A stretch of DNA of 64,000 nt from Candidatus Hydrogenedentota bacterium (GCA_016791475.1 JAEUWI010000003.1:1-64000); one strand, 5' to 3'. Counted from the first letter of the stretch, positions 10,352 through 36,782 are shown. The notes: generated by a model from the letters alone, not told the origin. Numbers and translations are program-made.

Positions 10352-10816
10352 ATGAAAATAAATCGATTCCTCAAAGATGAGCGCGGCGTGACGCTGATAG
10401 AAATAACACTTGCGGTGGCTATTTTCGCAGGTGTCATCGCCGTGACCGCCCAGTCCCTCATGTCTTTCTACGTCAGCATCGACATCCAGGAACAGCGCAT
10501 GGAAGGCGTCCGCGCCTGCCAGAGCGTGATGGATGGCCTTCGGGAGAAACGGGTTGAGTATAAAGACAATTTCCCGGAAGGGCTTCTGACCTGGATCGAG
10601 ACCAACAATGACAGCTCCTGGGCGGCGTTCAAAGCGGACAACAGCGAGCATGTGGAACTTGCGGATCAGACTATCGAAGTGACCTGCTTCAATGACGCAG
10701 GCGAAACGGCGGATGGGGACGACAACCCCATCGTGGTTCACGTAACCACGAACTGGACCGATCGTAAGGGTCGTCCGCTGGCGGCTACGCTTGTGAGCAT
10801 GTTGACCAATGAATAA
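10352..10816 (+). CDS. Type IV prepilin-like minor pseudopilin (PilV/GspI class)
   Basis: The ATG at 10352 is preceded by GGAG and gives a short basic leader (KINRFLKDERG) before a class III signal: cleavage after Gly, then VTLIEITLAVAIFAG with Glu at +5. The product has 154 residues, and its mature body is a small globular pilin head. Such proteins are processed by a prepilin peptidase (not in this window) and build the tip or shaft of a type IV pilus or type II secretion pseudopilus. The stop overlaps the next reading frame; the second pilin probably uses an ATG just after it. Confidence 0.85.
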   Translation: MKINRFLKDERGVTLIEITLAVAIFAGVIAVTAQSLMSFYVSIDIQEQRMEGVRACQSVMDGLREKRVEYKDNFPEGLLTWIETNNDSSWAAFKADNSEHVELADQTIEVTCFNDAGETADGDDNPIVVHVTTNWTDRKGRPLAATLVSMLTNE

Positions 10817-10829
10817 GGAGACAGCTTCC

Positions 10830-11459
10830 ATGAAAAACAGCGGACACACCATGGTCGAAATAATGGTCTCGATGGGCATCCTCTCCGTCGTCTCCCTCCT
10901 CGGCTTTATCGTACTTCAATCTTCCACCACTTCGGCCCAGTTGGCCAACGCCAAGGTGGAGGTTCAGAATAACCTTCGGGATACCGTCTCCGTATTGAGC
11001 AGCGAGCTTCGCGAAGGGGTAACGGAAATTACGACCGAGAAGACGGGCGCGCCCGAGGGCCTGTTTCCCGTTGCCATCAGCGATGAAGGCCGTTCGATTA
11101 CTTTCCAAGTTCCACAACCCGTCTCGGGCGAGGCGATTTTTGCTTACTCCACGCCCATCACATTCTCCCTGGAGAATGAAGATGCCAATGAGAACGGTCT
11201 GCTGGATCCCGATGAGGACACGAACGGCGACGGTACGTTGACGCGTCGCATGGTGCGTTCGCAGGACGGGGCCACGGTGCCCGTGGCGAGCGCCTCGACC
11301 ATCGAATTTGTGAATTTTACGCTGCTGGCCAACCAGGCTGCGGACGTTGAAGATATGACTACCGTGCAAATTACCTTGCGTGGCAGCAAGCGATACGGAG
11401 CAGGTGAAGGCAAACCGCTTCTCGCCGAGACAACATCCAATATTCGCCTCGTCAATTAA
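10830..11459 (+). CDS. Type IV prepilin-like minor pseudopilin (PilW/GspJ class)
   Basis: I place the start at the ATG at 10830, which has AAGGAG nine bases upstream; an in-frame ATG at 10809 would overlap the previous gene. The product (209 residues) has a short leader MKNSG followed by HTMVEIMVSMGILSVVSLLGF, a class III prepilin signal with Glu at +5. The mature domain contains Asn/Asp-rich repeats (DANENGLLDPDEDTNGDG) that look like a calcium-binding EF-hand or dockerin-like loop, also seen in some PilW-like proteins. It is the second gene of a four-gene operon. Confidence 0.85.
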   Translation: MKNSGHTMVEIMVSMGILSVVSLLGFIVLQSSTTSAQLANAKVEVQNNLRDTVSVLSSELREGVTEITTEKTGAPEGLFPVAISDEGRSITFQVPQPVSGEAIFAYSTPITFSLENEDANENGLLDPDEDTNGDGTLTRRMVRSQDGATVPVASASTIEFVNFTLLANQAADVEDMTTVQITLRGSKRYGAGEGKPLLAETTSNIRLVN

Positions 11460-11474
11460 GAAAGGAGGGGACCT

Positions 11475-13781
11475 ATGGATCATAGCCACCTTAAAAGAAC
11501 AAATCAGGACGGTATAGCACTCGTATTCGCCATGCTCGCCATCATCGTCATTCTGGGCTCGATGGGTCTGGTCATGACGGGTGTACAGCGCGCCAAGAAA
11601 GAAACCGACCTCGCCTACAACAATGTGTTGTTGGAAGAAGCGGCCCAGGCGGGCATTGACCTGGCTGTAGAGCAGCTATGGAACGATTACAAAGTAAGCA
11701 GCGGCAACACGACCGGCAACGTTGCCTCGTACAAGTACTACCTGAACAACACCGCCGAGATCCCCATCAACGAAGATTTGAACTTCAACGGCAGCAAAGA
11801 TGTCGGTGAAGAGGGCAACGGTGACGGTACCTTCGACACGCTGCCCTCGGGTGTCGGCCAGTATGGCAAGGCCATCATAACCGAACCCATCGATTTCAAG
11901 AAGCCGGGTACGGAAACCGTGCTGGCTACTATAGAGAACGTAACGGTTTCCCGCTACGACACGGTCTATGAATCGCGGCTTACCGTCCGCTCCTCGGCGA
12001 CGATCGACGGCACGTCCAAGACGGCGGTGCAGGTGCTGCGCATTGGCGGTTCGCCCTTCGATCACGGCCAGTTCGCCATTCTTGCCAATAACATCAGTTG
12101 CATCCTCTGTCACGCGGAAATCCGCTCCCTCGAACTCGAGCGCAACACGGATTCCAGCCTCTACGGCACCTTTGACCGGGTCAAGGTAGCGGCGCTGGAG
12201 TCCCTCCTCGTCCGCACGGGTTCCGAGCCCGATTCCCGTGTAGCCGGTTCCGTGTACACTCGCGGCCGGGTTTATCAGCCCAACGGCAGCGAGTATACCG
12301 CCGCCGGCCTGGCTTCCACCGGCTTTGACGCCTATTCCTTCAGCAGCGAAGACGGAAAGATTACCCAGAGCGCCACGGGCGGCATGACTACGACCAATCT
12401 GGCCAATGCCGCGAAGAACGGTGACGGGGAGTTGCTCCAGTTCGCTAACCTCTACATGGAATACCCCGAAGAGGCGGAGGCGCAGACCGACGGCCCCCTT
12501 CCCGGTACTTTCCCGGCGCCCTATCCCGATGAAGATGGTGACCGCGTGGTGGATGACTCCGAGTTTGAAGTTATCGTCAACACCGCCAACGGCAGTATTG
12601 ACTTCGAGTTGGGCGTGGAAGACCCGAGCGGCGCCATCACCAATGGTGTTGCCTACGGCATACCCGACGGCGGCATTTATACCGGTACGACGCTTCCGGA
12701 GTCTTCCAATTCGGCGCTGTCTTCGCTGTCCACCGACGGGTACTACGACGGTAACCTCATCCTGGTGGGCACGGAAGACGACCCCATCAAGATACAGAAT
12801 ACCGTTGCCATTGACGGTGACCTGGTGATCAAGGGACCAGTTGAAGGCGAAGGAAAGCTCCTCGTTCGCGGCAATACCTATGTCATCGGTGACGTTACCT
12901 ACAAGGACGCCCCCGGCGAATTTGGCGTAAACGAATCCGGCGAAACGAACGCCTTCGCGTTGGTATCGGGCGGAAGCGTCATGATGGGCGACTACACCAC
13001 GATTCGTGGCGTCAACCATACTTCCTATAACAACGACAAGTACCCGACCTGGAGCCAGTACAGCATCCACACGCGGGACAAGAACCGGACCAACAACGTA
13101 AATCGCCTTGGTTCCAATCAGACGCTGAAGTGGGGCTATTTTGACCCCTACTCGACGGATCCCAACCAGAAGGTTACCGGAACGCCCGGCAATCAGTTCA
13201 GCTTCACCATGTCAGAGCTTCAGTTGTTCAACCAGCTCGAACTGGAAAAGGCCGTGGCCGACAACACCTACACGCCGCGATTCTATGGTCTTCGCGAAAG
13301 CCAGCCGAACAACATCTGGCTGTACGACGCGGCCGACGAGCACGCGGTGCACTATAACGACTCGGGCGTGAAGAAACTGAGCGACTATCTGGTTGCGAAG
13401 GGTTACCCCCTTGATATTCTGAGTCGTGCGGCCTATCACTACCTGAATCCGGACGGCAACTGGATGTCGGAAGATCAGTTGCGCCAGTTCTGGTACGACG
13501 ATGAAATGTCCCGCCCGAGCAGCGGACGCGACTTCAAGTTCGACGGCTTGCTGTACAGCAACAACTCGATCTTCAATATCGTCCGCAGCATGGAGCGGCA
13601 CTACTCGAACTCGAAAGGCAAGATGACGATCCGGGGCGGCGTGATTGCGGCCGATCTGGGTATGTTCGTGCCCGGTGGTCTCAAGCTGCACTACGATCCG
13701 CGCGTGGAGCGTTTCCTGAATGTGGCGGATACGGAACAGGTGGTTTTCGCCCGCGCGGCCTTCTACTTCGATCGCGGGTGA
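11475..13781 (+). CDS. Large PilX-like pilus assembly protein with a CxxCH motif
   Basis: This 768-residue protein has a perfect AAAGGAGG ribosome site. The N-terminus (DGIALVFAMLAIIVILGSMGLVM) is the hydrophobic segment typical of PilX/GspK-like proteins that lack a canonical +5 Glu, and an EAAQAGIDLAVEQL helix follows as in that family. Residues about 205-215 read NNISCILCHAEI, a CxxCH motif that could bind covalent haem c. Around residue 445-475, IDGDLVIKGPVEGEGKLLVRG is a beta-helix-like stretch resembling bactofilin/DUF4900-like polymer-forming proteins. Asp-rich loops (NFNGSKDVGEEGNGDG) may bind calcium. It is far larger than usual PilX (about 200 residues). It probably caps or decorates the pilus made by the two preceding pilins. 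Confidence 0.75.
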   Translation: MDHSHLKRTNQDGIALVFAMLAIIVILGSMGLVMTGVQRAKKETDLAYNNVLLEEAAQAGIDLAVEQLWNDYKVSSGNTTGNVASYKYYLNNTAEIPINEDLNFNGSKDVGEEGNGDGTFDTLPSGVGQYGKAIITEPIDFKKPGTETVLATIENVTVSRYDTVYESRLTVRSSATIDGTSKTAVQVLRIGGSPFDHGQFAILANNISCILCHAEIRSLELERNTDSSLYGTFDRVKVAALESLLVRTGSEPDSRVAGSVYTRGRVYQPNGSEYTAAGLASTGFDAYSFSSEDGKITQSATGGMTTTNLANAAKNGDGELLQFANLYMEYPEEAEAQTDGPLPGTFPAPYPDEDGDRVVDDSEFEVIVNTANGSIDFELGVEDPSGAITNGVAYGIPDGGIYTGTTLPESSNSALSSLSTDGYYDGNLILVGTEDDPIKIQNTVAIDGDLVIKGPVEGEGKLLVRGNTYVIGDVTYKDAPGEFGVNESGETNAFALVSGGSVMMGDYTTIRGVNHTSYNNDKYPTWSQYSIHTRDKNRTNNVNRLGSNQTLKWGYFDPYSTDPNQKVTGTPGNQFSFTMSELQLFNQLELEKAVADNTYTPRFYGLRESQPNNIWLYDAADEHAVHYNDSGVKKLSDYLVAKGYPLDILSRAAYHYLNPDGNWMSEDQLRQFWYDDEMSRPSSGRDFKFDGLLYSNNSIFNIVRSMERHYSNSKGKMTIRGGVIAADLGMFVPGGLKLHYDPRVERFLNVADTEQVVFARAAFYFDRG

Positions 13782-13825
13782 GCCGCACGATGACCGAATT
13801 AAAATCGATGCTGGAGAAAGTGCAC

Positions 13826-14791
13826 ATGAAATCTCGATGGCAACACGTCCTGCTGGCCGTTGCCTTGTTGGCGGCCACCGCGGGCGCCGATACGGTCTAC
13901 CTGAAGAATGGTGTCGAGTTCGACGGCGTCGTGACGCCCGTTCCCGATAATCCGGATGTCTTCAAGGTGACGGCGGGCGAGCGGAGCCTCGTCTATCGCG
14001 CGGAAGAAATCGACCGCGTGGAGAAGAACGAAAAGACCGGAAAGTTGAGCAAGGAGGAGATCCTGGCCAATTGGGAAGAGCAGAATCGGATCCTCACGGA
14101 GGAAACGGGCCTTACCGCGGAACAGCGCAACCTCGTCATGGGGCTGATGTTCGAGTTGAAGACCGACAACGTTTCCAAGCGGGTGGCGGTGCGCGAGAAA
14201 CTGATCGGGCTTCAGAAGGAGTTCGACGCCTACAGTTTTCTTGCGAATCAGCTCCCCGGCGTATCGATTCTTATCGGTCCCAATCTGCTCGAAGCACTGG
14301 CCTATATGGACAGTTCGCGGGCGCTGGAACTCCTCCAGGCCGGCGCGCAAAATAATTATTTTGGCACGCGGGTCATGGCGATTGAGTTGCTTGGCCGCCT
14401 CGGTCATACGGGCAGCAAAGATCTCATTGTCCGCGGCCTGGCCGACCACAAACAGGAAGTGCAGATCAGCGCGATTTACGTGCTGGCGGGTATGGGGGCG
14501 CGGGAAGTGACCCCGGCGCTCATCAGCCTGCTGCCGAACCCGGACGAGCGCGTTTCAAATGCGAGCCGTGAGGCATTGCTGGCGCTCTGGGCGAACGCTC
14601 TTCCCGATCCGAAGCCGGGCACGGTGGACGAGTGGACCGCCTTCTGGAACGCCCAGGAGAAGTCGGGAACGCCTGTGCAGCTCGCGGATCTTAAGGCGCT
14701 CAGCAATCCCGAAGAAGAGATCGTAAGCAGTATCGATACCAATCACGGGGTGGGCTCCGGCGCCGAGACGACGGTCGCCTCGGAAGGCTGA
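13826..14791 (+). CDS. Exported HEAT-repeat protein
   Basis: The chosen ATG (13826) follows GGAGAAAG and opens a signal peptide (KSRWQHVLLAVALLAATAGA); an upstream in-frame GTG at 13778 would overlap the pilin gene and bury the signal. The mature protein begins DTVYLKNGVEFDGVV, a short beta motif common at the N-terminus of periplasmic proteins in planctomycete-like bacteria. From about residue 150 it contains HEAT/PBS-lyase-type repeats (ALELLQAGAQNN, RVMAIELLGRLGHTG, VQISAIYVLAGMGAREVTPALISLLPN). It is the last gene of the pilin-like operon and is followed by a terminator. It may act as a periplasmic scaffold for the appendage. Confidence 0.75.
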   Translation: MKSRWQHVLLAVALLAATAGADTVYLKNGVEFDGVVTPVPDNPDVFKVTAGERSLVYRAEEIDRVEKNEKTGKLSKEEILANWEEQNRILTEETGLTAEQRNLVMGLMFELKTDNVSKRVAVREKLIGLQKEFDAYSFLANQLPGVSILIGPNLLEALAYMDSSRALELLQAGAQNNYFGTRVMAIELLGRLGHTGSKDLIVRGLADHKQEVQISAIYVLAGMGAREVTPALISLLPNPDERVSNASREALLALWANALPDPKPGTVDEWTAFWNAQEKSGTPVQLADLKALSNPEEEIVSSIDTNHGVGSGAETTVASEG

Positions 14792-14821
14792 CAGACAGAA
14801 ACCCCTTGAATGCGAAGTATC

Positions 14822-14860
14822 GAAGCCGGCTGCCTCTGAGAGGTGGTCGGCTTCTTTATT
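14822..14860 (+). terminator. Rho-independent terminator after the pilin-like operon
   Basis: Arms GAAGCCGGCTGCCT and AGGTGGTCGGCTTC pair over 14 positions if G-U wobbles are counted, with a short loop, and are followed by a T-rich run. It lies 30 bp past the stop of the HEAT gene. Confidence 0.8.
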
Positions 14861-14950
14861 AACCGCACCGAGCCGATCTCTCCCCGATACCGGGCTTGGG
14901 GATTGGTGGGCGAAGAGACTATAATGGGGCCAAACTCAGGAGCGATTGCC

Positions 14951-16021
14951 ATGTCGGGAATTTCAGTTTTGCTTTGTGTCGCGGCCCTTGCCGCGCCGGT
15001 GTCGGTCGATGTGACCAAGCCTCCGGCGCGTAATATTTCCGAGTATAACCTGTTTAAAGACGGCGCCCGCCAGATTCCCAATGATGGTGTTCTGCCTTAC
15101 GACTTGAATACACCGCTCTATTCGGATTATGCGACCAAGCACCGCTTCATCTGGCTCCCTGAAGGTACCCAGGCGGCGTATCGAGACCCGGATGTCTTCG
15201 ATTTCCCCGTCGGCACGGTGATCGCGAAAACGTTCGGTTTTCTAAATGATATCCGAGACCCTTCGAAAGGGGAGCGGATCGTTGAAACGCGCCTCCTTAT
15301 TCACAAGCCGGAAGGGTGGGCGGGCTTCGCCTACATCTGGAACCAGGACGCGAGCGACGCCCGGCTGGCCGTTGCGGGGGGGCGGGTGGATGTTTCGTGG
15401 ACGCATTTCGACGGGGAGGTGCGCAAGCTAGATCGCTACATCATCCCCAACATGAACGAGTGCAAGCAGTGCCATGAAATCGGAGGCAAGCTACAGCCCA
15501 TCGGTCCAAAAGCGCGCCACCTGAACAAGACGTACTCCTATCCCGATGGCGCCATGAATCAGCTCCTCAAGTGGCAGGCGGCGGGTTATCTGGGCGAGGC
15601 GCCCACCCCGGAAGCGGCACCCCGGGTTCCCAACGCCGACGACCCCGCCAGCGGCACCCTGAACGAGCGGGCGCGGGCCTATCTGGATATCAACTGCGCC
15701 CATTGCCACAACCCCTCGGGGCCCGCGCACATGTCCGGGCTGGATCTGTCCTACAATCAGCGAGACGCCGGAAAATACGGTGTGTTCAAGAGCCCTATTG
15801 CTGCGGGCCGCGGTTCCGGCGGCTACAAGTTCGGCATCGAGCCGGGACACCCCGAGGTGTCCATTCTGATGCACAGACTGGAGAGCACCGAGCCCGGCGT
15901 TATGATGCCGCCCCTTCCCAAACGAATGATCCACGATGAGGGAGTGGCCTTGCTGCGGGAATGGATCCTCGCCATGCAGGCCAGGGTGACCGAAGGGAAC
16001 TTAGTGGAGTTGGTGGAGTAG
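14951..16021 (+). CDS. Exported diheme c-type cytochrome, SO_2930 family
   Basis: The start at 14951 has an AGGAG site and gives a signal peptide (SGISVLLCVAALAAPV). The product (356 residues) has the layout of the SO_2930-type diheme proteins: an N-terminal domain with SEYNLF, PYDLNTPLYSDYATKHRFIWLP and FPVGTVIAKTF, a first haem motif CKQCH, and a C-terminal domain with a second CAHCH followed by HNPSGPAH and a late MMPPLPKR that may supply an axial Met. Such proteins carry electrons in the periplasm, often next to oxidases or multicopper proteins; none is adjacent here. The last ten codons (EGNLVELVE) fall inside a 31-bp repeat that recurs at 20007-20037 in non-coding DNA, so the C-terminal end may be acquired. 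It follows the terminator of the pilin operon and is probably transcribed separately. Confidence 0.85.
   Translation: MSGISVLLCVAALAAPVSVDVTKPPARNISEYNLFKDGARQIPNDGVLPYDLNTPLYSDYATKHRFIWLPEGTQAAYRDPDVFDFPVGTVIAKTFGFLNDIRDPSKGERIVETRLLIHKPEGWAGFAYIWNQDASDARLAVAGGRVDVSWTHFDGEVRKLDRYIIPNMNECKQCHEIGGKLQPIGPKARHLNKTYSYPDGAMNQLLKWQAAGYLGEAPTPEAAPRVPNADDPASGTLNERARAYLDINCAHCHNPSGPAHMSGLDLSYNQRDAGKYGVFKSPIAAGRGSGGYKFGIEPGHPEVSILMHRLESTEPGVMMPPLPKRMIHDEGVALLREWILAMQARVTEGNLVELVE
15991..16021 (+). repeat. 31-bp direct repeat, copy 1
   Basis: Matches 20007-20037 at 30 of 31 positions (T for C at one place). Here it encodes the last codons and stop of the cytochrome gene. The two copies bracket the 4-kb ABC/DUF3299 block. 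Confidence 0.85.
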
Positions 16022-16076: not shown

Positions 16077-16913
16077 CTACGGTCGCAGCAGGGACTTTCG
16101 CAGCAGTTTAGACGCGTCTGACACGTCGCCGGCCTTCATGCGATAGATACTGAGTACGTAACCCTCTTCAATCTCTTCACCAACGTCGAGAGTTCCGAAG
16201 ACGGCCACGGGCGATTCGGGTTGGTAGGCGACTTTCAAGGCGGGGGATGCCTCCACGAGAACCCACTCGTTTATTTCGGGGGAAACGCCGTAGCAGCAGA
16301 AGGACTGATTCTGCGTGATGGCGAAGCTGGTAATGCTTCCATCCTCGGCAAGTTCAAAAGGCACCATGAATCCCACGACCACCGCCTGCTGGCCGCTCAG
16401 CGCGCGAATTGGCGCGGGAATCTGATCACCCAGCAGGGCTGACGGGTTTTCCGCTCTTTGAAGTGTCTCGGGATCCGGATGTTTGTATGTGAAGGATGCT
16501 AGTCCACGAAAGGTGAGCTTGAAATACTTCCCGTCGGTCGTTTTCTCAAAATTGAGCGAGCCACCTTTCTCTGCAAGCTTCGTCTCCGATTCCTGTAAGG
16601 CTTCAAAGTCGGCTTGAGGTATGTTGCGGCTGCCCGGCGCGACCGACGGCGTATCGATTCTCCGGCCGGCCCGGGGCGCCGGGGCGTCGATGGGTGCGCC
16701 GCGTGGGGGAGGAGGCGTTGCCGTCGGGGTCTCCTCGGTACCCGCATAGGCGACATCCGCAAGGGGGAATAGCGCTTCTTCGGCCACCTGTGGGTGACGT
16801 CCAATCTCCCCGGGGGCATTCTGGTCACTCAATCCTCCCCCCATAATCATGCCCAGCAGTGCGGCCACTAGAACGATCAGTCCCGCCAGTTCCTTGGGTC
16901 TTCTCATGTTCAA
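16077..16913 (-). CDS. DUF3299-family exported protein (ZrgD-like)
   Basis: This 278-residue protein has an N-terminal hydrophobic signal or anchor (LAGLIVLVAALLGMIMGGG) and a Pro/Ala/Thr-rich linker to about residue 100. The C-terminal domain from about 145 matches DUF3299: ALSGQQAVVVGFMVPFELAEDGSITSF, then QNQSFCCYG with vicinal cysteines, then VAVFGTLDVGEEIEEGYVLSIYRM. Family members accompany FtsX-like ABC cassettes and a His-rich lipoprotein, as in the zinc-regulated zrg locus of Vibrio (from memory). The paired Cys may bind metal. It is the last gene of a four-gene minus-strand operon. Confidence 0.72.
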   Translation of the reverse strand: MNMRRPKELAGLIVLVAALLGMIMGGGLSDQNAPGEIGRHPQVAEEALFPLADVAYAGTEETPTATPPPPRGAPIDAPAPRAGRRIDTPSVAPGSRNIPQADFEALQESETKLAEKGGSLNFEKTTDGKYFKLTFRGLASFTYKHPDPETLQRAENPSALLGDQIPAPIRALSGQQAVVVGFMVPFELAEDGSITSFAITQNQSFCCYGVSPEINEWVLVEASPALKVAYQPESPVAVFGTLDVGEEIEEGYVLSIYRMKAGDVSDASKLLRKSLLRP

Positions 16914-16953
16914 GTTACCTTTCCAATTGGCCCCGGCTTAATCCGCGGTATTG

Positions 16954-17541
16954 TTACTCGTTCCCGTCCGGGAAGTTGAATTCGGTCTCGTTGATCGATG
17001 TGCCCCTGAAACTCAACGGGCCTATTCGACCCTGAAAGCGCTGAAGGTTTTTCAGGCGTTCGTCCGTAACCGAAAACTGGGAGGTGTCCCCCGACGTTTC
17101 ACCGGTCAGGGCATTCTCCTGGGCTGCCACCTGCAGTTCGAACGGTGTCCCACCTTCGGGAATCACGGTCAACACTAGGTTAGGCTCTTTCATCCGGACG
17201 GGACTCTCGGCATGGCCGTCAAGGGAGTAGAGGGTCAAGCGCCCGGATGACGGGTCGAGTACCACTTCGATGTGCCCCAGGTGACCACCCAATACCAGCA
17301 GTGTGCCACCGTGCGGTGCGGTGTGATGGTGGTCATGCTCTTCCTCGTGATCATGACCAATATCATCGTGATCGGCGGGCGCAGGAGCGGGGGAGGCCGC
17401 CATCGCTTTGGCTTCAGGTCGGGCAGGTTCCGTCGCAGGGGGAACTTCTTGGGCGGGCTTGCATGCGCCGAGATGAAGGCCAATGCCCAAAGCCAGTGTC
17501 AGAGTGGCAATCCAGGGGCGCAGTGAAAGGTGGTGGCTCAT
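16954..17541 (-). CDS. His-rich lipoprotein, probable metal-binding partner of the ABC cassette
   Basis: I start at the ATG giving MSHHLSLRP, which follows GGAG; upstream in-frame ATGs give no signal peptide. The product has 195 residues with a lipoprotein signal (LALGIGLHLGAC, Cys at lipobox). Residues about 50-80 are an Asp/His/Glu cluster (DHDDIGHDHEEEHDHHH), a classic zinc or nickel ligand patch like those of ZnuA or ZrgA/DUF2796 proteins. The following domain (GGTLLVLGGHLGHIEVVLDP...) is beta-rich, ends near SINETEFNFPDG and may bind further metal. It lies between the ABC permease and the DUF3299 gene in one operon. A role in capture of periplasmic zinc is the best guess. Confidence 0.72.
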   Translation of the reverse strand: MSHHLSLRPWIATLTLALGIGLHLGACKPAQEVPPATEPARPEAKAMAASPAPAPADHDDIGHDHEEEHDHHHTAPHGGTLLVLGGHLGHIEVVLDPSSGRLTLYSLDGHAESPVRMKEPNLVLTVIPEGGTPFELQVAAQENALTGETSGDTSQFSVTDERLKNLQRFQGRIGPLSFRGTSINETEFNFPDGNE

Positions 17542-17597
17542 CTCTTGGTCTCCAGAGTTCATTCTGATGTTGACCTTCAACGCCATCTTCGGGGCGT

Positions 17598-18860
17598 TCA
17601 AGTTTTTGGAAGCAGGTTGGTGGCGATATCAGTGCCATAGGCTCTGACGGCGGGAATGATTCCCGCGAAGCCGCCAACGAGCGTCATTCCCAGAGGAGTT
17701 ATGACTTGTATCGGATGGGGGACCAGGGTGCGGAGAACGACACCGGTATGCTCACGGACGACCCAGGCGGCGACGGCCAGAATTACCATGTAGAGCGCGA
17801 AGCCCGCGATTGCACCAATGAAACCGATGAGACTCGACTCAAGTACGATGGCGCCGAATACGGTGGCCCGGCGCGCACCCAGTGCGCGAAGTATGGCAAA
17901 CTCGCGACGCCGCTCGTTGATGGTGTTGTAAATACTGGCCGTGATCGCGGTCGCAGATACGAGCACGACGAGATAAGCCACTAGCTTCAGCACACGATTG
18001 ACCCAGCCCATTTTTTCGAAGAGATCCAGCATGACGGCATCAAGGGGAAAGGCCAACGTTGCGACCTTGCCCTGCTTGTTGATGGTCTGCTCCAACTGCC
18101 AACCCGTGGCGGGGCTGGCGAGTTTGAGCAGCACTGCGCTGACTTCTTTGTGCTCATCGGGTATGGACTGCCCCGCGGCGGCCTGGTAGTCTTCGCCCGA
18201 GGCCCGAAGCACGTGGCCCTCCATGCGGAAGATCCCTTCGATAGGGATCCATATCACACGGTCCGATGGCGTGTTCGTTGGCTCAAGAATTCCGACCACC
18301 GTATACTCTTCCGGGTGTTTTGCGTTCTCGTCATAGGTGAGTCCGTGATAGGGGTTGATCGTATCGCCCGGTCTGAGGCCGGTCTGTTCGGCGACAAAGC
18401 TTCCGACCACGGCCTCGCGAAAGCCGTCGTCGAAGAAACGCCCGCCATCGCGGACCGCGTTGACCGCTCCGCTTCGAGATGGAAGATCGGTAAAGAAGGC
18501 GTGGGTCGTTCCGACGATTCGGAACCCCAAGTAGTTGTCGCCGGTCGCTACAGGTATGGCCTTCTGCACCCCAACAGTGTTATCGCGCAGAGACGTATAA
18601 AGCGTCCAGGGAATGTTGCCCGGCGAGGTCTCCAGATGAAAGACCGTGTTCAGCACCAGTTGCAGCTTGCTGCCCCGCGCCCCCAGCACCGCATCATAGC
18701 CCACATCCGGATTTGCGAAGGCCTGCCTGGACTGGGATTCTATCGCGAATACCGCCATGATGAGGCCCGAGGCGAGCGCCACAGAGATGACGGTTATCGC
18801 CGTGGAAAAGAGGTGCTGCCGGAGGCTCTTTCGTGCAATCATGAGTATGGCTCGGCTCAT
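17598..18860 (-). CDS. ABC transporter permease, FtsX/MacB-like
   Basis: This 420-residue protein has the topology of the MacB/LolC permease family: one N-terminal transmembrane helix (HLFSTAITVISVALASGLIMAVF), a periplasmic domain of about 240 residues, then three C-terminal helices (VAYLVVLVSATAITASIYN, SLIGFIGAIAGFALYMVILAV, PLGMTLVGGFAGIIPAV). The motif INERRREFAILRALGARR before the second helix is the coupling loop that contacts the ATPase. Its start overlaps the stop of the ATPase gene by four bases. MacB-type pairs do mechanotransmission or extraction from the periplasmic face rather than classical import. Confidence 0.9.
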   Translation of the reverse strand: MSRAILMIARKSLRQHLFSTAITVISVALASGLIMAVFAIESQSRQAFANPDVGYDAVLGARGSKLQLVLNTVFHLETSPGNIPWTLYTSLRDNTVGVQKAIPVATGDNYLGFRIVGTTHAFFTDLPSRSGAVNAVRDGGRFFDDGFREAVVGSFVAEQTGLRPGDTINPYHGLTYDENAKHPEEYTVVGILEPTNTPSDRVIWIPIEGIFRMEGHVLRASGEDYQAAAGQSIPDEHKEVSAVLLKLASPATGWQLEQTINKQGKVATLAFPLDAVMLDLFEKMGWVNRVLKLVAYLVVLVSATAITASIYNTINERRREFAILRALGARRATVFGAIVLESSLIGFIGAIAGFALYMVILAVAAWVVREHTGVVLRTLVPHPIQVITPLGMTLVGGFAGIIPAVRAYGTDIATNLLPKT

Positions 18861-19588
18861 TCCGACTTCCTCCGCCGAAGCACTACGTTGATATCCGAAA
18901 AGGCGTGCAACTCGTCAAACTGTGCGAGTATCTCCCGATCGTGGCTCACGAGGAGCAAGGCGGCTCCCGCCTCCGCGCAGATGGTGCGGATGAGTGTCAT
19001 CGCGTCCGCCGCGTTCTTTTGATCCAGGTTGCCCGTGGGCTCGTCTGCGAGCACAACCGACGGACGATTGGCGAGAGCGCGTGCCACGGCAACCCGCTGT
19101 TGCTGGCCCACCGACATTTGGCCTGGCCGATAGTGAAGGCGATCAGCCAAGCCCACGCGCTCCAGCAGGTGAAGGGCGTATTCATTGTCCACCTCACTAC
19201 CGAAAAGCATGCTCATACGAACATTTTCGAGGGCAGTGTATCCCTGGAGCAGGTTGAAGGTTTGGAAGATGTAGCCGATGCGTCTGGCGCGCACCCGATC
19301 CCGGGCGGACTCTTGGAGGGCGGAAAAAATCTGGCCTTCGATCAGTACTACGCCCGTATCGGGCTGAAGAATGCCGGCAAGCATATTGAGAAACGTTGTC
19401 TTTCCGGATCCGCTGCCACCGTGGATGGCCGTATGATGACCGTGGACCAACTTGAAGGCGTCCACCCGCACGATGGGCACGCGAACACCGTCTGGCGTCC
19501 GATAGGACTTCTCCAGACCTTGCGCTTCAAGTGCGGGCTCGGGGTTCCCGTTAAGCGCGGATATTTGAGAACGTGGGGTGGACAACAT
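18857..19588 (-). CDS. ABC transporter ATP-binding protein, LolD/MacB-like
   Basis: The product is 243 residues from ATG 19588, which has GAAGG five bases upstream; a GTG at 19609 in frame is an alternative. It has Walker [11 protein letters not shown]-loop [16 protein letters not shown], signature region MSVGQQQR, Walker [13 protein letters not shown] and switch SHDRE. The signature is SVGQQQR instead of the usual SGGQQQR, a change at the second position. [10 protein letters not shown] is the hallmark of the LolD/MacB/FtsE subfamily. It pairs with the FtsX-like permease and heads the operon that ends with DUF3299. A dyad-containing promoter lies about 100 bp upstream. Confidence 0.9.
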
Positions 19589-19689
19589 GGGGACCTTCGG
19601 GCACCTCACGGGATCGGCGAAAGCTCACTTTAGTTGTATTGCACCAACTGCACCATGGCGATATTGGCCGAGACTGTCTCGACACCATG

Positions 19690-22726: not shown

Positions 22727-22816
22727 ATGGGCCTTCTGGAATGGGTGGCGGTCCTCCTGACCGCGGGGCTCTTGCTCTATCTGTCTTATGTACTGGTTTT
22801 TCCGGAGCAATTCTGA
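22727..22816 (+). CDS. kdpF: Potassium-transporting ATPase small subunit KdpF
   Basis: A 29-residue, single-helix peptide (MGLLEWVAVLLTAGLLLYLS) ending in PEQF, of the length and composition of KdpF. It is the stabilising subunit that binds KdpA in the inner membrane. It is too short for most gene finders. Its stop TGA overlaps the start ATG of kdpA by one base, giving a tightly coupled kdpFABC order. Confidence 0.88.
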   Translation: MGLLEWVAVLLTAGLLLYLSYVLVFPEQF

Positions 22817-24540
22817 TGAGTAACGGATATTTTATCTTGCTTGCGGCATTCATGCTGACGCTCTTTGGCGCAACCTTCCCCTTCGGGGCCTGGCTCGTTC
22901 GCATCGAGCGGGGCCTCCCGGGCGCCGGGCTGCTGGGGCGTTTGGAGCGCGCCGTCTATCGCCTGTGCGGTATCGACCCCGCGGAGGGCATGTCCTGGTC
23001 TCGCTATGCGATGGCGGTACTGGTGTTCAATTTCCTGGGCGTGCTCGCGGTCTATGCCTTGCAGCGGACGCAGGCCTGGCTCCCCCTGAATCCACAGGGG
23101 TTTGGCAACGTCACCGCGGACTCGGCGTTCAACACCGCGGTCAGTTTCGTCAGCAACACGAACTGGCAGGGCTATGGCGGTGAGAGCACCATGAGCTATC
23201 TTACCCAGATGGCGGGCCTGGCCGTGCAAAACTTCCTGTCGGCGGCGACGGGAATCGCGGTGGCCTTTGCGATGATTCGAGGCTTCACGCTGAAGCGCTC
23301 GGCCTCTATCGGAAACTTCTTCGTGGACGTCTACCGGATCACGGTATACATGCTGCTTCCGCTCAGCGCGATTTGCGCGTTGGTGCTGGTCAGCCAGGGT
23401 ATGGTCCAGAATTTCAGCGCCTATGTGACGGTCGCGCCGCTGGACAGCGCGGCGCAGCCGGCACAGGAGCTCGCCATGGGCCCCGCAGCGTCCCAGGTTG
23501 CCATAAAGATGCTGGGGACCAACGGCGGTGGTTTCTTTAACGCCAACGCTTCGCACCCCTTCGAGAATCCCAACGCGCTCTCGAACTTTCTGCAGATGGC
23601 GCTTATCTTCCTGATTCCCGCCGGGCTGTGCCGGGCCTTTGGCCACCTTGCGGGCGACTACCGTCAGGGATGGGTGCTCTGGGGTGTCATGGCGGCGCTC
23701 TTCTTGAGTTGCGCCGTGGGCGTGGGCTATTTCGAACAGCAGGCCAACCCCGCCCTGAGTCCCGTCGGGTTGGATATGGCAGCCAGTCCGGACCAGCCGG
23801 GCGGCAACATGGAAGGCAAAGAAGCGCGATTTGGAATCTCGGCCACCTCGCTCTTTGCCACCATCACCACCAGCGCTTCCTGTGGCGCGGTAAATGGCAT
23901 GCACGACTCCTTCTCACCCCTGGGAGGCCTTTTCCCCATGTGGCTGATGCAACTGGGCGAGGTGGTCTTCGGCGGCGTGGGCAGCGGGCTCTACGGCATG
24001 CTGGTATTCGCGGTTATTGCCGTTTTCATGGCGGGCCTGATGATTGGGCGCACCCCGGAGTACCTGGGCAAGAAGCTGGAGCCCTTCGAAATGAAGATGG
24101 CCGCTATGGCGGTGCTCGTGACGCCAGTCCTGGTGCTCGCGGGAACGGCCGTGGCGATTTCGGTCGAAGTCGGCCGTTCAGGCATGCTCAATCCCGGCGC
24201 CCATGGTTTCAGTGAGATTCTCTACGCCTTCAGTTCGGCCGCCAACAACAACGGCAGCGCTTTCGGCGGACTCTCGGCGAACACGCCCTTCTATAACAGC
24301 ATGCTTGGCATCGCCATGTGGCTCGGTCGCTTCGCGGTCATCGTACCAGTACTCGCCCTTGCGGGCGGCCTGGCCGCAAAAGCCGAAACGGCGCGAACGG
24401 TCGGTACCCTGCCCACGGACGGCGTGCTCTTTGCCGTGATGCTGGGCGGCACGGTGCTGGCCACCGGCGCCCTTACCTATATCCCCGCGCTGGCGCTCGG
24501 CCCGGTAGCCGAGCACCTCTTGCCGCTTGCCCTCCACTAA
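22816..24540 (+). CDS. kdpA: Potassium-transporting ATPase subunit KdpA (channel-like)
   Basis: This 574-residue polytopic membrane protein has about ten helices and is of the SKT (superfamily of K+ transporters) fold. The four pore-loop repeats are visible, including [38 protein letters not shown] and [21 protein letters not shown], and [18 protein letters not shown]. These line the selectivity filter. KdpA binds and passes K+ to KdpB in the high-affinity import complex. Length matches the family (about 560). The 18-bp gap to kdpB carries an AAGGAA-like site. Confidence 0.97.
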
Positions 24541-24557
24541 GACAAGGAATCCCTTTC

Positions 24558-26615
24558 ATGTATAAAAAATCGTTCTCCATGCTCGACCCGGCCACAATGA
24601 AGAGTGCCCTGGTGGGTGCGGTCAAGAAGCTCCACCCCAGCAGTCAGTTCCGGAATCCGGTCATGTTTGTGGTTTACGTGGGCAGTATATTGACGACAGC
24701 CCTCTTCGTCCAGGCGCTCGTTGGCGAAGGTGAAGCGCCCCCAAGTTTTATCTTCGGCGTAGCAGCCTGGCTCTGGGCCACCCTGCTCTTCGCCAACTTT
24801 TCCGAAGCCATGGCCGAAGGCCGGGGCAAAGCCCAGGCGGCGACCCTGCGCGAGATGCGTACCGCCGTCCATGCGAAGCTCCTCATCGAGCCAAAGCGCC
24901 ACGCCCCCTGGGAGAACGTGCTGGCCGACGAGCTCCGAAAAGGCGATGTGGTCCTCATCGAGGCCGGTGACATGGTGCCCTGCGACGGCGAAGTGATCGA
25001 GGGCGTCGCGTCGGTGGACGAGAGCGCCATTACGGGCGAGTCGGCTCCGGTCATTCGCGAGGCCGGCGGCGATTTCAGTTCCGTCACCGGCGGCACCCGC
25101 GTGCTTTCCGATTGGCTCGTTGTCCGCGTGGCCGTGGATCCTGGAGAGTCCTTTCTAGATCGCATGATCAAGATGGTGGAGGGTTCCCAACGGCGCAAGA
25201 CCCCGAACGAAGTGGCTCTGACCATCCTTCTCGTCGGCTTGACGATTGCCTTCCTCATGGCCACGGCCACGCTGCTGCCCTTCTCGCAGTATGCGGCGAA
25301 TAATGGCAGCGGGGGAGCGCCGGTAAGCATCACGGTCCTCGCCGCCCTGCTGGTATGCCTGATTCCCACGACCATTGGCGGCCTCCTTTCAGCCATCGGT
25401 ATCGCGGGCATGAGCCGCGTGCTGGCGGCAAACGTGGTCGCGACGTCCGGCCGTTCCATCGAGGCCGCGGGCGATGTTGACATCCTCTTGCTGGACAAGA
25501 CCGGCACCATTACCCTGGGTAACCGGCAGGCGGTCGCCTTCCTTCCCGCGGACTGGGTGGCGGTCGAAGACCTGGCCGACGCGGCCCAGTTGGCCTCACT
25601 TTCCGACGAGACGCCCGAAGGGCGGAGTATCACCGTGCTTGCGAAGCGGGCCTACAACCTCCGCGAACGTGAACTGGCCGCGCTTGACGCCCATTTCATA
25701 CCCTTCACGGCACAGACGCGAATGAGCGGTGTTTCCCTCGGCGGTCGCGAAATATGCAAGGGCGCCGCCGAGGCGGTGCGCGCCTGGGTTGAGTCACAGG
25801 GAGGCAGCTACCCGGAAAGCATGAGCAAGCTCGTAGACGATGTGGCCACCCGGGGGAGCACGCCGCTGGTGGTTGCGGAGGGCACCAAGGTGCTGGGCGT
25901 GGTCGAGTTGAAGGACATTGTCAAGGGCGGAATTCGCGAGCGCTTCGCGGAACTGCGCCGAATGGGCATACAGACCGTCATGATTACCGGTGACAACCCA
26001 AAGACGGCGGCGGCGATTGCCGCGGAAGCCGGCGTGGACAATTTCCTGGCGGAAGCCACACCGGAAGCCAAACTCGCCATGATCCGACGCTACCAGGCGG
26101 AGGGCCACATGGTGGCCATGACGGGCGATGGAACCAACGACGCCCCCGCATTGGCCCAGGCCGATGTGGCCATGGCGATGAATTCGGGTACGCAGGCGGC
26201 CAAGGAAGCCGGCACGATGGTGGATCTGGACTCCAACCCGACAAAGTTAATCGAGATCGTCCAAATTGGCAAGCAGATGCTCATGACGCGCGGCGCGCTC
26301 ACCACCTTCAGTATCGCCAACGACGTGGCGAAGTACTTCGCCATTATTCCGGCGGCCTTCGCGGCGACCTATCCGTCGCTGGGTGTGCTCAACGTGATGG
26401 GGCTCGAAACGCCGGCCTCGGCAATTCTGTCGGCGGATATCTTCAACGCCTTGATTATCATCGCCCTGATTCCCCTGGCCCTTCGCGGCGTGGCCTACAC
26501 GCCCGCGTCCGCCGGAGCGCTGCTCCGGCGGAACATGTTGATCTACGGACTGGGGGGACTTGTCGCGCCCTTCGTCGGTATCAAAGTTATCGACATGGCG
26601 CTGTCCGTGTTCTGA
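24558..26615 (+). CDS. kdpB: Potassium-transporting P-type ATPase subunit KdpB
   Basis: The ATG at 24558 gives a 685-residue protein, the usual KdpB length. The actuator domain has ITGESAP, the phosphorylation site is [11 protein letters not shown], the nucleotide domain contains [10 protein letters not shown] and KGAAEAV, and the hinge motif is [22 protein letters not shown]. Transmembrane helices include [19 protein letters not shown] with the IPTTI bend typical of KdpB. It hydrolyses ATP to drive K+ uptake. A long in-frame upstream extension overlapping kdpA is an artefact. Confidence 0.97.
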
Positions 26616-26646
26616 TTGCTGTATACTCAAAGGAGCTATGAACCCC

Positions 26647-27219
26647 ATGAAAAACATACTTAGACCCGCAGTTGTGCTCTTCGCCCTCATGACTGTACTG
26701 ACCGGAATCGTCTATCCGGTGCTCATCACCGTCGCCGCGCAGGCGCTCTTTCCCCATCAGGCCAACGGCAGTCTCATCATCCGTGACGGAACGGTTGTCG
26801 GCTCGGAATTGATTGGTCAGTCCGTTACCGCGCCCCGGTATTTCTGGGGCCGCCCTTCGGCCTCGGGGGGATCCGCGTACAATGCCGCGGCTTCGGGCGG
26901 CTCAAACCTCGGGCCGACCAACCCCGCGCTGCTCGAAGCCGTGACGGCGAGGGCGACTCTTCTGCGCGATGCTGCGACGGATAAGAACCAGCCGATCCCC
27001 ATCGACCTGGTCACCGCCTCCGGCAGCGGTCTCGATCCCCATATCAGCATTGCTGCGGCGAAGTATCAGGCTGAACGTGTCGCGCGCTTTCGCAGCAAGG
27101 ATGTGGGGGTGATCGAGTCCCTGATTGAAGCCCATGCCGAGCGTCCCGCCGTGCCGGGATTCGGGGAGCCGGTGGTGAACGTGTTGCGCCTCAATCTCAG
27201 CCTTGATGAAATGGAGTGA
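26647..27219 (+). CDS. kdpC: Potassium-transporting ATPase subunit KdpC
   Basis: The product is 190 residues if the ATG at 26647 is used; AGGAG lies 11 bases upstream, while an in-frame ATG at 26638 sits only two bases after it. KdpC hallmarks are the N-terminal helix (AVVLFALMTVLTGIVYPVLIT), GSELIGQSV, YFWGRPSA, YNAAASGGSNLGPTNPAL, and the C-terminal VNVLRLNLSLD. KdpC is the periplasmically exposed chaperone-like subunit that helps K+ binding. Its end overlaps the upstream-most possible start of kdpD. Confidence 0.95.
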   Translation: MKNILRPAVVLFALMTVLTGIVYPVLITVAAQALFPHQANGSLIIRDGTVVGSELIGQSVTAPRYFWGRPSASGGSAYNAAASGGSNLGPTNPALLEAVTARATLLRDAATDKNQPIPIDLVTASGSGLDPHISIAAAKYQAERVARFRSKDVGVIESLIEAHAERPAVPGFGEPVVNVLRLNLSLDEME

Positions 27220-27244
27220 CAGTGTGGTGGACCCGGAGCATGCG

Positions 27245-29935
27245 ATGACCCGCCCCGACCCGGACGAGCTTGTCCGGCGTGTTCAGGCGGAAGAGGCCAA
27301 AGCGGGGCGCGGCAGGTTAAAGATATTCTTTGGCGCCAGCGCCGGCGTGGGGAAGACCTTCGCCATGCTCCGGGCCGCCCGGCAATTGCAGGAGGGTGGA
27401 GTGGATGTGGTCGTTGGCCTCGTGGAGACCCACGGCCGCCGCGACACCATGGCGTTGTTGGAAGGGCTGGAGCTTCTTCCGCGAAGGGTTCTGCCGTATC
27501 GCGGTCATGACCTGGAAGAATTCGATATTGATGCCGCCCTGAAACGCCGTCCATCGGTAATACTCATCGATGAACTGGCCCACACCAACGCTCCAGGCTC
27601 GCGCCATCCGAAGCGGTGGCAGGATATTGAAGAAATTTTAGGCCAGGGTGTGGATGTTTATTCGACACTTAATGTGCAGCACCTGGAAAGTTTGAACGAC
27701 GTGGTGGGGCGGATCACGAGCATCCGGGTGGGGGAGACCGTGCCAGATCGGGTCTTCGATGCCGCCGATGAGATCACCCTGGTCGATCTTCCGGCGGAGG
27801 AATTGCTCCAGCGCCTGAAGGACGGCAAAGTCTACATGCAGGAGCAGGCGAATCGCGCCGCGCAGAATTTCTTCCGCAAGGGCAACCTAATCGCACTGCG
27901 CGAGCTGGCCCTTCGTCGCACGGCCAACCGGGTGGACGATGATATGGCGGGCTATCGCAGCCGCGCCGCGGCAACGTCAATCTGGCACGCGCGGGATCGC
28001 GTCCTGGCCTGCGTGGGGCCCGCTCCCGGATCGGACGATGTGCTCCGGAGCGCCTCCCGGCTGGCCTCGGCACTGAACGCGGACTGGCACGCGATCTACG
28101 TGGACCCCCCCGCCCACCAGGCGCTGCCGGAAGCGGTCCTTTCCGTTGTCCTGGGGCGCTTGAAGCTTGCGGAAGATCTCGGCGCGTCTACGTCGACCAT
28201 TTCGGGGGTGGACATCGCCCAGGGGCTGATCGCCTATGCACGGCGGCAGAATGTCACCAAGATCGTGCTGGGTCGCACGGTGCATTCCTGGTGGCGCAAC
28301 CCCCTTTCGCTGGATCTGCCCCAGCAGATTGAACGTCTGGCGCCGGATCTCGATCTGGTGCTGGTGGGCAGGCCCGCACAGGCTGATCAGCCTCGCCGCG
28401 CCGCGAAGACATCCCCGGCGGGGCCGCGGATTTCCACCCAACGCTACGTCCTCTCCATCGTCGCCAGCGCGGCCACGGCCGCCGCCACCTATCCGTTCTT
28501 TCCCGCACTGGACGACACGAACATCGCCATGCTTTTTCTTGCTTCCGTACTACCGGTGGCCCTGTATCTCGGGCGCGGCCCAGCCATCGTCACGGCCCTG
28601 TTGAACGTGCTGGCCTTCGATGTGCTCTTCGTCGAACCGCGCTTCTCCGTTGCCGTGAGTGATGTGGAGTATCTGATCACCTTTCTTGTCATGTTTGTAG
28701 CCGGGCTCCTCACCGCAAGCCTGGCTTCCGGCATGCGTTTTCAAACGAGAAAAGCCCTCTCCCGCGAGGAGCACATGCGCGACCTCTATCAGCTCGCACG
28801 GGACCTCTCCGGCGCACTGACCAACGAGCAGATTGCGGGGATTGTGCAGCGCGCGGTGAAGGGGCTTTTCGGGGCGGAATCCCGCCTGCTCATGCCCGAT
28901 CTCGCCAACCGCTTGAAGGCCCCCGCCGATACCATGGCCGTGGATATGGGCATTGCCCAGTGGAGCTTTGATCGGTGCAGCACCGCAGGCGCCGGCACCG
29001 ACACACTCCCAGGCAGCGAGGTCCACTATCTCCCGCTGAAGGCCCCCATGCGCGTCCGGGGCGTCCTGGCGATTCAAAGTCTCCCGCGCCAGGCCCTGAT
29101 GATGACGGAAGACCGCCAGCAACTGGAGACGCTGGGCGCCCTGGCGGCCATCGCGCTGGAGCGCGTCCACTTTGTCACCGTGGCCCAGGAGACCCTGCTG
29201 AAGATCGAGTCGGGGCGTCTGCGGGAATCCATGCTGAACGCCCTTTCCCACGATCTCAAGACGCCCCTGGCCTCCATGCAGATCATGGTCGAAACGCTCC
29301 TTCATGAAAAGGCCCGATTCCCGGAAGCGCAACACGATCTGGTGGCGCGGATCCACCTGCAGGTACGGGGCATGGCGCGCATCGTCGGCAATTTGCTCGA
29401 CATGGCGCGGCTCGAAGCGGGGCCCGGCGTGCTCCGGCCCGACTGGCAGCACCTGGAAGAGCTCATTGGCACCGCCCGCAATGCCCTCGGCCCCGCCCTG
29501 GATCAGCACCGGTTGCTGGTCGAAATACCGTCCGACTTCCCCTTGCTCCATGGCGACGGCGTGCTCCTGGAGCGGGTGTTCGCAAATTTGCTCGAAAATG
29601 CGGGAAAATACGTGCCTGCCGGAGGGTCCATAGGCATTCGCGCCCGTGTGAAAGGCGTGCAGGCGGAAATTGAAGTGTGGGATGAAGGTCCTGGAATACC
29701 GAAAGGTCAGGAAAGTGTGCTGTTCGAGAAATTCGTGCGCGGGAAGTCGGAGTCCTCGGTGGCGGGCGTCGGACTCGGATTGGCGATTTGCCGCGCCATC
29801 ATCGACGCCCACGGCGGCACCATCACGGCCGAAAATCGGCCAGAAGGCGGCACCTGCTTTCGCATGACCCTGCCCCTGAAGACACCGCCCGAACTGGATC
29901 CGGAGACGGTGGAAAGCGAGATGGACGACGCATGA
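27245..29935 (+). CDS. kdpD: Sensor histidine kinase KdpD
   Basis: I start at ATG 27245 (GGAG six bases before), giving 896 residues and MTRPDPDELV..., the usual KdpD start; an upstream ATG (27203) lies in kdpC. Order: KdpD N-terminal domain with Walker A GASAGVGKT and ETHGRRDT (about 20-215), a universal-stress-type domain (about 240-370), four transmembrane helices in a DUF4118 region (about 400-500), a GAF-like segment, HisKA with H in LSHDLKTPLAS, and HATPase with ENAGKY, DEGPGIP and GVGLGLAI. It senses K+ limitation or ionic stress and phosphorylates KdpE. The stop overlaps kdpE by four bases. Confidence 0.96.
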   Translation: MTRPDPDELVRRVQAEEAKAGRGRLKIFFGASAGVGKTFAMLRAARQLQEGGVDVVVGLVETHGRRDTMALLEGLELLPRRVLPYRGHDLEEFDIDAALKRRPSVILIDELAHTNAPGSRHPKRWQDIEEILGQGVDVYSTLNVQHLESLNDVVGRITSIRVGETVPDRVFDAADEITLVDLPAEELLQRLKDGKVYMQEQANRAAQNFFRKGNLIALRELALRRTANRVDDDMAGYRSRAAATSIWHARDRVLACVGPAPGSDDVLRSASRLASALNADWHAIYVDPPAHQALPEAVLSVVLGRLKLAEDLGASTSTISGVDIAQGLIAYARRQNVTKIVLGRTVHSWWRNPLSLDLPQQIERLAPDLDLVLVGRPAQADQPRRAAKTSPAGPRISTQRYVLSIVASAATAAATYPFFPALDDTNIAMLFLASVLPVALYLGRGPAIVTALLNVLAFDVLFVEPRFSVAVSDVEYLITFLVMFVAGLLTASLASGMRFQTRKALSREEHMRDLYQLARDLSGALTNEQIAGIVQRAVKGLFGAESRLLMPDLANRLKAPADTMAVDMGIAQWSFDRCSTAGAGTDTLPGSEVHYLPLKAPMRVRGVLAIQSLPRQALMMTEDRQQLETLGALAAIALERVHFVTVAQETLLKIESGRLRESMLNALSHDLKTPLASMQIMVETLLHEKARFPEAQHDLVARIHLQVRGMARIVGNLLDMARLEAGPGVLRPDWQHLEELIGTARNALGPALDQHRLLVEIPSDFPLLHGDGVLLERVFANLLENAGKYVPAGGSIGIRARVKGVQAEIEVWDEGPGIPKGQESVLFEKFVRGKSESSVAGVGLGLAICRAIIDAHGGTITAENRPEGGTCFRMTLPLKTPPELDPETVESEMDDA

Positions 29936-30627
29936 TCAACGACAACCGCGCTACCATCCTGGTCGTCGAAGACGAGCGGGAAATTCGACGTTTCCTTCGC
30001 TCCAGCCTGAGCGACAGTGGATTCGAAGTGGTGGAGAGCGACACCCTCCGTGGTGGTCTGGTGGAGGCGGGCACCCGCAAGCCCGATCTTGTCATACTCG
30101 ACCTCGGCCTGCCCGATGGCGACGGCGTCGACTTTATTCGCGAGGTCCGGGCCTGGAGCAACCTGCCCATCGTGGTCTTATCCGCGCGCGACGCCGAGAA
30201 GGACAAGGTCGGGGCGCTGGACGCGGGGGCCGACGACTATCTGACCAAGCCCTTCAGCACGGGCGAACTTCTTGCGCGCGTTCGCGCGACCTTGCGCCGC
30301 ACCACCAGCGCCACGCTCGATTCGGGATCCAGCATCCGTTTTGGGGCGATAGAAGTCGATCTTGCCCGACGACAAGTCACCAACCACGGGGAGAAGGTTC
30401 ACTTGACGCCCATTGAGTATCGTCTTCTGACGACCCTCATCGCCCATGAGGGAAAAGTGCTCACCCACCGCAACCTCCTTCGCGAAGTCTGGGGCCCATC
30501 CTTCGTCGAGCATAACCACTACCTTCGCATTTACATGGGTCACCTGCGCCACAAGCTGGAAGCCGACCCAACCCGACCGGCCCACCTACTCACTGAGACA
30601 GGCGTTGGGTATCGCTTCGTGATGTGA
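29932..30627 (+). CDS. kdpE: Response regulator KdpE
   Basis: The ATG overlapping the kdpD stop (ATGA) gives 231 residues. The receiver domain has acidic pocket VVEDE, phospho-acceptor Asp in LDLGLPDGDG, Thr/Ser switch VVLSARD and Lys in YLTKPF. The C-terminal half is an OmpR/PhoB winged helix (LTPIEYRLLTTLIAHEG, RNLLREVWG, YMGHLRHKLE, GVGYRFVM). It activates kdpFABC transcription when phosphorylated by KdpD; the TTTACA pair at 22540-22557 is the likely target. The operon ends here. Confidence 0.96.
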   Translation: MINDNRATILVVEDEREIRRFLRSSLSDSGFEVVESDTLRGGLVEAGTRKPDLVILDLGLPDGDGVDFIREVRAWSNLPIVVLSARDAEKDKVGALDAGADDYLTKPFSTGELLARVRATLRRTTSATLDSGSSIRFGAIEVDLARRQVTNHGEKVHLTPIEYRLLTTLIAHEGKVLTHRNLLREVWGPSFVEHNHYLRIYMGHLRHKLEADPTRPAHLLTETGVGYRFVM

Positions 30628-35600: not shown

Positions 35601-35603
35601 TCG

Positions 35604-36566: not shown

Positions 36567-36782
36567 TGCGCGCGATTTCCTGAATTCTAAAGAGCGAATT
36601 GGGTCTTGGAGGGTAAATTTGTTGGAGTAGCCCCTCGGTGACCGTGAACACGAACCAAGAATACCCCATTCGTCAAGGGGTTGCAATACGGGCGAGGCCA
36701 AATCCCCTCGCCTCTCCCTATCCGCCTGTGCTATACTCTTTCTATCGAGTGAGTTACGCCGCAGGTCCCCGGGTTTTTCCGC

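Follow-up and report, generated by a model that had tools for sequence, protein, structure and literature searches.

An invariant CxxCH motif in a PilX-like protein of Hydrogenedentota probably marks a haem- and calcium-binding pilus tip

A 768-residue PilX-like protein encoded in a pilin-like operon of a Hydrogenedentota bacterium is best read as a tip pseudopilin of the ComZ/GspK-like kind, with a CxxCH motif that is invariant among its full-length relatives. Judged from sequence comparison, the motif is probably the mark of a pilus tip that binds haem and calcium and has not been described before. Pilus tips decide the attachment of a cell or what it takes up, and their cofactors are almost unknown. 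If the reading is correct, the use of haem in filament tips would be old and general rather than peculiar to myxobacteria. Culturable carriers of the protein exist in the form of Meiothermus and Calidithermus isolates.

The operon lies in the window, that is, the whole 64,000-nucleotide stretch of DNA analysed here, which belongs to a Hydrogenedentota metagenome-assembled genome (MAG) of 7.7 Mb and 96% completeness. Its features and the evidence for each are as follows.

10352..10816, plus strand: minor prepilin 1, GspI/PilV-like, 154 aa; GVTLIE cleavage motif, N_methyl/TIGR02532 marginal.
10809..11459, plus strand: minor prepilin 2, GspJ-like, 216 aa; PF07963 N_methyl, E = 2.4e-5; an alternative start at 10836 is possible.
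11475..13781, plus strand: PilX/GspK/ComZ-like putative tip pseudopilin with beta-solenoid, 768 aa; family profile matches, AlphaFold2 model, ComZ fold match.
12099..12113, plus strand: CILCH, Cys209-Ile-Leu-Cys212-His213, candidate haem c site; invariant CxxCH within NNISCILCH.
12528..12563, plus strand: EF-hand-type loop D352-E-D-G-D-R-V-V-D-D-S-E363, candidate Ca2+ site; alignment, 62/62.
13778..14791, plus strand: HEAT-repeat protein, 337 aa, apparent export signal, last gene of the operon; PF13646 HEAT_2, 1.1e-11.
14822..14854, plus strand: intrinsic terminator closing the operon; 15-bp stem, −32.5 kcal/mol, z = −5.3.
14843..16021, plus strand: diheme cytochrome c of the SO2930 family, a neighbour outside the pilin system; TIGR03806, 6.4e-122.

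All five open reading frames (ORFs), those of the two prepilins, the PilX-like protein, the HEAT protein and the diheme cytochrome, were found with the coordinates given in an earlier, sequence-only reading of this DNA, which had also described the NNISCILCH motif, the end of the operon at a terminator and the cytochrome beside it; each of these stands. The terminator between the HEAT gene and the cytochrome is strong, none of 200 shuffled sequences being as stable.

Relatives were sought in one genome per species, 84,980 species in all, with patterns drawn from the solenoid, outside the CxxCH region. The scan gave 72 loci, the majority in Hydrogenedentota, with others in Zixibacteria, Planctomycetota (including the complete genome Poly30), Deinococcota (Meiothermus, Calidithermus, Trueperaceae and Deinococcales) and one MAG labelled Nitrospiraceae. 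Homologues are present in 43 of 68 Hydrogenedentota species, and in 33 of the 38 of good quality. Within this phylum, the motif is invariant in all 26 aligned full-length homologues. The cross-phylum alignment of 62 full-length homologues, from Hydrogenedentota, Zixibacteria, Planctomycetota and Deinococcota, has a mean pairwise identity of 35%, and C209, C212 and H213 are each kept in 62/62 of its members, being among just 27 invariant positions. The two X residues are almost always hydrophobic (I/V/L, then L/F/M). Cys209 and Cys212 are the sole cysteines of the window protein, and many members of the family likewise have just these two. The sequence-only reading had named loss of the motif in homologues as grounds for refuting it; the motif is kept throughout, and on the evidence of the alignment its conservation is far beyond chance. 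Since CxxCH is kept unchanged in four phyla, we take it, from this conservation, to be a real functional site.

The unfiltered matches give the same picture, with CxxCH in every ORF that spans the region; the exceptions are truncated pieces and two very distant solenoid pseudopilins (E ~1e-17) of a Planctomycetota MAG (L104:5984-10507), which could serve as an outgroup in tracing how the motif arose. A separate search of Thermaceae found CxxCH in 19/19 full-length family matches, several of the genomes overlapping those of the 62. Three remote solenoid PilX-like paralogues in genomes of Meiothermus type (L174, L175 and L176) also carry it, as TTNCMYCHLRV, and resemble the first PilX-like protein in one short stretch of the solenoid only.

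The 768-residue protein has no Pfam, NCBIfam or PDB sequence match above threshold, and neither Pfam nor NCBIfam has a model for the family. Profile matches do appear among its members, to PilX_N in 16/62 and to GspK in 13/62. The prepilin N-terminus has an invariant Gly13 followed by the hydrophobic helix IALVFAML, and Glu5 is absent, as in GspK. An AlphaFold2 model calculated with the cross-phylum alignment (pLDDT 88.2, pTM 0.79) opens with a long N-terminal helix (residues 7–75), continues with a beta-sheet and a solenoid region rich in beta-structure, and closes with a strand at 751–765; the CxxCH loop lies between strands 200–208 and 214–218, where the solenoid region begins. In the model of the Meiothermus rufus protein (L102:6995-9094; pLDDT 85.1), CxxCH forms a short helical turn between strands 161–167 and 173–177. 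A fold search of the PDB with the window model gave a sole significant match, ComZ (6qvi, E = 4.8e-5), with a TM-score of 0.16–0.21; the score is low and the match therefore covers local folds, not the whole arrangement. For the Meiothermus model, no PDB fold match was significant, the most probable being the Streptococcus sanguinis minor pilin PilA (probability 0.96, E = 0.3). No cytochrome fold was among the PDB matches of either model, no cytochrome profile matched the PilX-like protein or its family, PDB sequence searches with the family gave nothing significant, and nor did a viral structure library. The beta-helix-like part proposed in the sequence-only reading is borne out by weak MinC_C/bactofilin matches, the AlphaFold model and the ComZ fold match. 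The MinC_C/bactofilin matches raised the idea of a role like that of MinC or bactofilin, which was rejected because they reflect the beta-solenoid only.

ComZ of Thermus thermophilus is a DNA-binding protein in which a beta-solenoid is inserted into a GspK-like pilin domain; it has been argued to fit only at the tip of the filament (PMC6561018). In common with it, the PilX-like protein has a pilin-like N-terminus without the usual pilin motif, a pilin domain with a large predicted beta-solenoid, and a gene beside those of other minor pilins; its pilin domain pairs with that of a ComZ orthologue in hhalign (probability 93%, E = 2.5e-7). It differs in being ~200 residues longer and in having CxxCH, and the solenoid sequences are not detectably similar. 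ComZ itself was rejected as a member of the CxxCH family, since its orthologue (L169, 7.7e-303 to 6qvi) is without the motif; further PilX-like ORFs, two from genomes of Meiothermus type and one from a genome of Thermus type, were rejected as ComZ candidates, having no ComZ match. From these comparisons we infer that the PilX-like subunit would be located at the tip.

The genes around it point the same way. In Hydrogenedentota, Zixibacteria and Planctomycetota, the PilX-like gene is directly preceded by the genes for a GspI/PilV-like and then a GspJ-like prepilin. Family members of prepilin 1 match GspI (12/26) and PilV (9/26, best 2e-12), and those of prepilin 2 match GspJ (12/26, best 1e-8) and cassette C of the Verru_Chthon group (best 7e-9); the GspI, GspJ and GspK matches are mostly N-terminal and below curated cut-offs. 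On these profile matches, the genes stand in the I-J-K order of tip complexes, and the likeness to GspI-GspJ-GspK of type II secretion covers gene order and family-level profiles. GspK is not known to have a solenoid or CxxCH, unlike the PilX-like protein of the window. The Verru_Chthon cassette (TIGR02596, TIGR02598, TIGR02599 and TIGR02600) likewise combines small prepilins with one large PilX-like protein; the matches to its C and A members are weak and far below curated cut-offs. In Deinococcota, the PilX-like gene lies amid other pilins instead of the GspI-like and GspJ-like pair. A response regulator gene was seen directly upstream of the CxxCH PilX-like gene in Meiothermus and Calidithermus (L102, L101, L099, L088 and L092). 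The HEAT homologue adjoins the PilX-like gene in 31/72 loci, in Hydrogenedentota and the Nitrospiraceae-labelled MAG, and in none of the Zixibacteria, Planctomycetota or Deinococcota loci among the 72. Machinery for a filament, which the sequence-only reading had suggested should be sought elsewhere in the genome, is present: 19 PF00437 matches (PilB/GspE- and PilT-type ATPases), eight secretin matches and one prepilin peptidase.

The sequence-only reading made no mention of a second conserved site, the EF-hand-type loop at 12528–12563. Residues 352–363 follow the pattern D-x-[N/D/G]-x-[N/D]-[R/K]-x-[V/I/L]-D-x-x-E and fit the canonical EF-hand loop. All 62 aligned sequences keep positions 1, 5 (N/D) and 12, and 53 of them have Asp at position 9. 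As in an EF hand, the loop leads into a helix, at 361–371 in the AlphaFold model. The loop most likely binds Ca2+, to judge from this pattern. An Asp/Asn-rich loop is also present in prepilin 2, at about residues 116–132, and is kept in most of its family.

We consider it likely, from the conservation of the motif, that CxxCH of the PilX-like protein carries haem c. The strictness of His213 speaks for haem, since a plain CxxC disulphide would not require the histidine. The means of attaching haem are present in nearly all hosts: CytC_asm was found in 46/49 genomes carrying the family, and ResB in two of the remaining three. Among the genomes lacking CytC_asm, G107 has ResB and in G109 neither was detected; G073 and G035 represent one organism (identical homologue, L043 and L018), and the ResB gene of G035 lies near the end of a contig, which presumably cuts off the CcsA gene that follows. 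In several genomes, an operon of ResB and CcsA could be read directly. This co-occurrence discriminates little, because CytC_asm is present in 64/68 species of Hydrogenedentota overall. A three-gene operon for a lipoprotein, a ResB-like and a CcsA-like protein is conserved in Hydrogenedentota without a PF13442 (class-I cytochrome) match (L120, L121, L122, L123, L125 and L126); the small lipoprotein may represent an additional component of this System II pathway for haem c. Genome G022, which has no PF13442 cytochrome, was considered as a case in which the PilX-like protein would be the only client for haem, and was dropped on account of nine CxxCH codes within 1.5 kb elsewhere; the PilX-like protein is probably not its sole client.

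Against haem, the alternatives are another metal or a disulphide at CxxCH, which even taken together we regard as unlikely. If the two cysteines and the histidine bound a non-haem metal (for example, Zn or Cu) together with an acidic or carbonyl ligand, the site would be a structural clamp at the junction of pilin and solenoid. Such a clamp would suit the position of the motif in a strand-loop-strand of the window model and the absence of a cytochrome fold match, and no distal haem ligand is conserved: the 62-member alignment has no invariant His, Met, Lys or further Cys, the residues that are invariant being Tyr, Arg and acidic, among them D339, D352 and E363. The haem could nevertheless be five-coordinate, ligated by Tyr or provided with a ligand by a partner; candidates for a distal ligand among the invariant residues are Tyr476, Tyr604, Tyr694 and Arg160. 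Ligation of one metal by adjacent Cys and His is unusual, and exact invariance of CxxCH in an exported protein is the classic signature of haem c, in hosts nearly all of which have c-haem synthase genes; we therefore give the non-haem metal only a small probability. A disulphide between C209 and C212, with no cofactor and with His213 kept for packing or redox tuning, would be in keeping with the oxidising exterior of the cell and with the Deinococcota members, which have about 8 further cysteines, apparently paired. It leaves the strict His213 (62/62) unexplained, the residue after the second Cys being usually free to vary in CxxC loops, and we consider it improbable.

A precedent for the two candidate sites is found in Myxococcus xanthus, where the non-canonical cytochrome c TfcP helps the tip protein PilY1 to bind Ca2+; a part for TfcP in electron transport is judged unlikely (PMC8833165). 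Like that system, the proposed tip would combine a c-type haem with an EF-hand-like Ca2+ site in a pilus tip and priming system. In Myxococcus, two proteins are involved: the haem belongs to a soluble cytochrome, in which Cys is the distal ligand, and the Ca2+ to PilY1 (PMC8833165). Here, a single pseudopilin has both candidate sites. By analogy with TfcP, the role of the haem in the tip subunit is likely to be structural or regulatory. The open-access literature, to which the search was confined, yielded no description of a haem-bearing pilin; TfcP was rejected as such, being a separate protein, as was the "pilin-cytochrome" of Carboxydothermus, which is a gene cluster only.

On balance, we think it probable that the operon encodes a GspIJK-like tip complex with a ComZ-like tip subunit that carries one haem c and one Ca2+. 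The prepilin would enter the inner membrane and expose its large domain to the periplasm, where the System II synthase (ResB/CcsA) would attach haem to Cys209 and Cys212 before assembly of the filament, with His213 as the proximal ligand and Ca2+ occupying the loop 352–363. The GspI-like and GspJ-like partners would then recruit the PilX-like subunit, and the complex would prime and cap a type IV filament, displaying the solenoid at its tip as a receptor or adhesin. The haem would stabilise a Ca2+-dependent tip receptor (an adhesin or DNA receptor), or gate it by redox state or ligand, and would not carry current. A role in adhesion or DNA binding is what this arrangement suggests to us. Rather unlikely, and offered as speculation, is the broader proposal of a widespread class of haem c and Ca2+ tip proteins in which the redox or ligand state of the haem gates the adhesin or DNA receptor, making a pilus tip that senses redox or gas.

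A different emphasis, compatible with the haem- and calcium-binding tip complex, would make DNA uptake the main function, with the protein serving a competence pilus as a ComZ-like receptor for DNA and CxxCH being an elaboration of it. ComZ is the only significant solved fold, the pilin domain aligns with the ComZ orthologue at the profile level, and ComZ itself binds DNA (PMC6561018). Set against this are the lack of detectable sequence similarity between the solenoids and of CxxCH in the ComZ orthologue, and DNA binding by the PilX-like protein is putative. We hold this as a tentative possibility.

The sequence-only reading had gone further and proposed a haem-decorated pseudopilus or electron-transfer appendage in which the neighbouring cytochrome might take part. 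The conserved CxxCH and the many cytochromes of the host genome (31 PF13442 matches) would accord with a filament for extracellular electron transfer, as would the diheme cytochrome homologue found downstream in two close relatives also. There is no CxxCH in the two prepilins and one in the PilX-like subunit, which on structural grounds is expected only at the tip; one haem per tip subunit therefore gives no wire or chain of haems. The cytochrome itself belongs to the SO2930 family (406.6 bits against TIGR03806, curated cut-off 313.3). Its link to the operon did not hold: the terminator separates the two, a homologue lies within the flank (up to ~7 kb) in just 2/72 loci, those of the two close relatives, and some genomes that carry the PilX-like family have no detectable PF13442 cytochrome. 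The cytochrome was thus rejected as a partner, and an electron-transfer pilus working with it is very improbable.

Elsewhere in the window, genes for a DUF3299 protein, a His-rich putative lipoprotein (HDDIGHDHEEEHDHHH), a MacB/FtsX-type permease and an ABC ATPase lie in a row on the minus strand at 16077–19609, a cluster which we take to resemble zinc- or metal-responsive transport clusters such as zrgABCDE of Vibrio. An apparent kdp potassium-uptake cluster is on the plus strand at about 22741–30624, KdpD being identified by Pfam (PF02702, 3.5e-97) and the rest by order and size only. On the minus strand at 34008–36701, a gene for a XamI-type restriction endonuclease (PF09572, 9e-110) adjoins one for an Eco57I-type methylase, with a stretch of lower G+C (0.54 at 32–34 kb) beside them; this region is a restriction-modification island.
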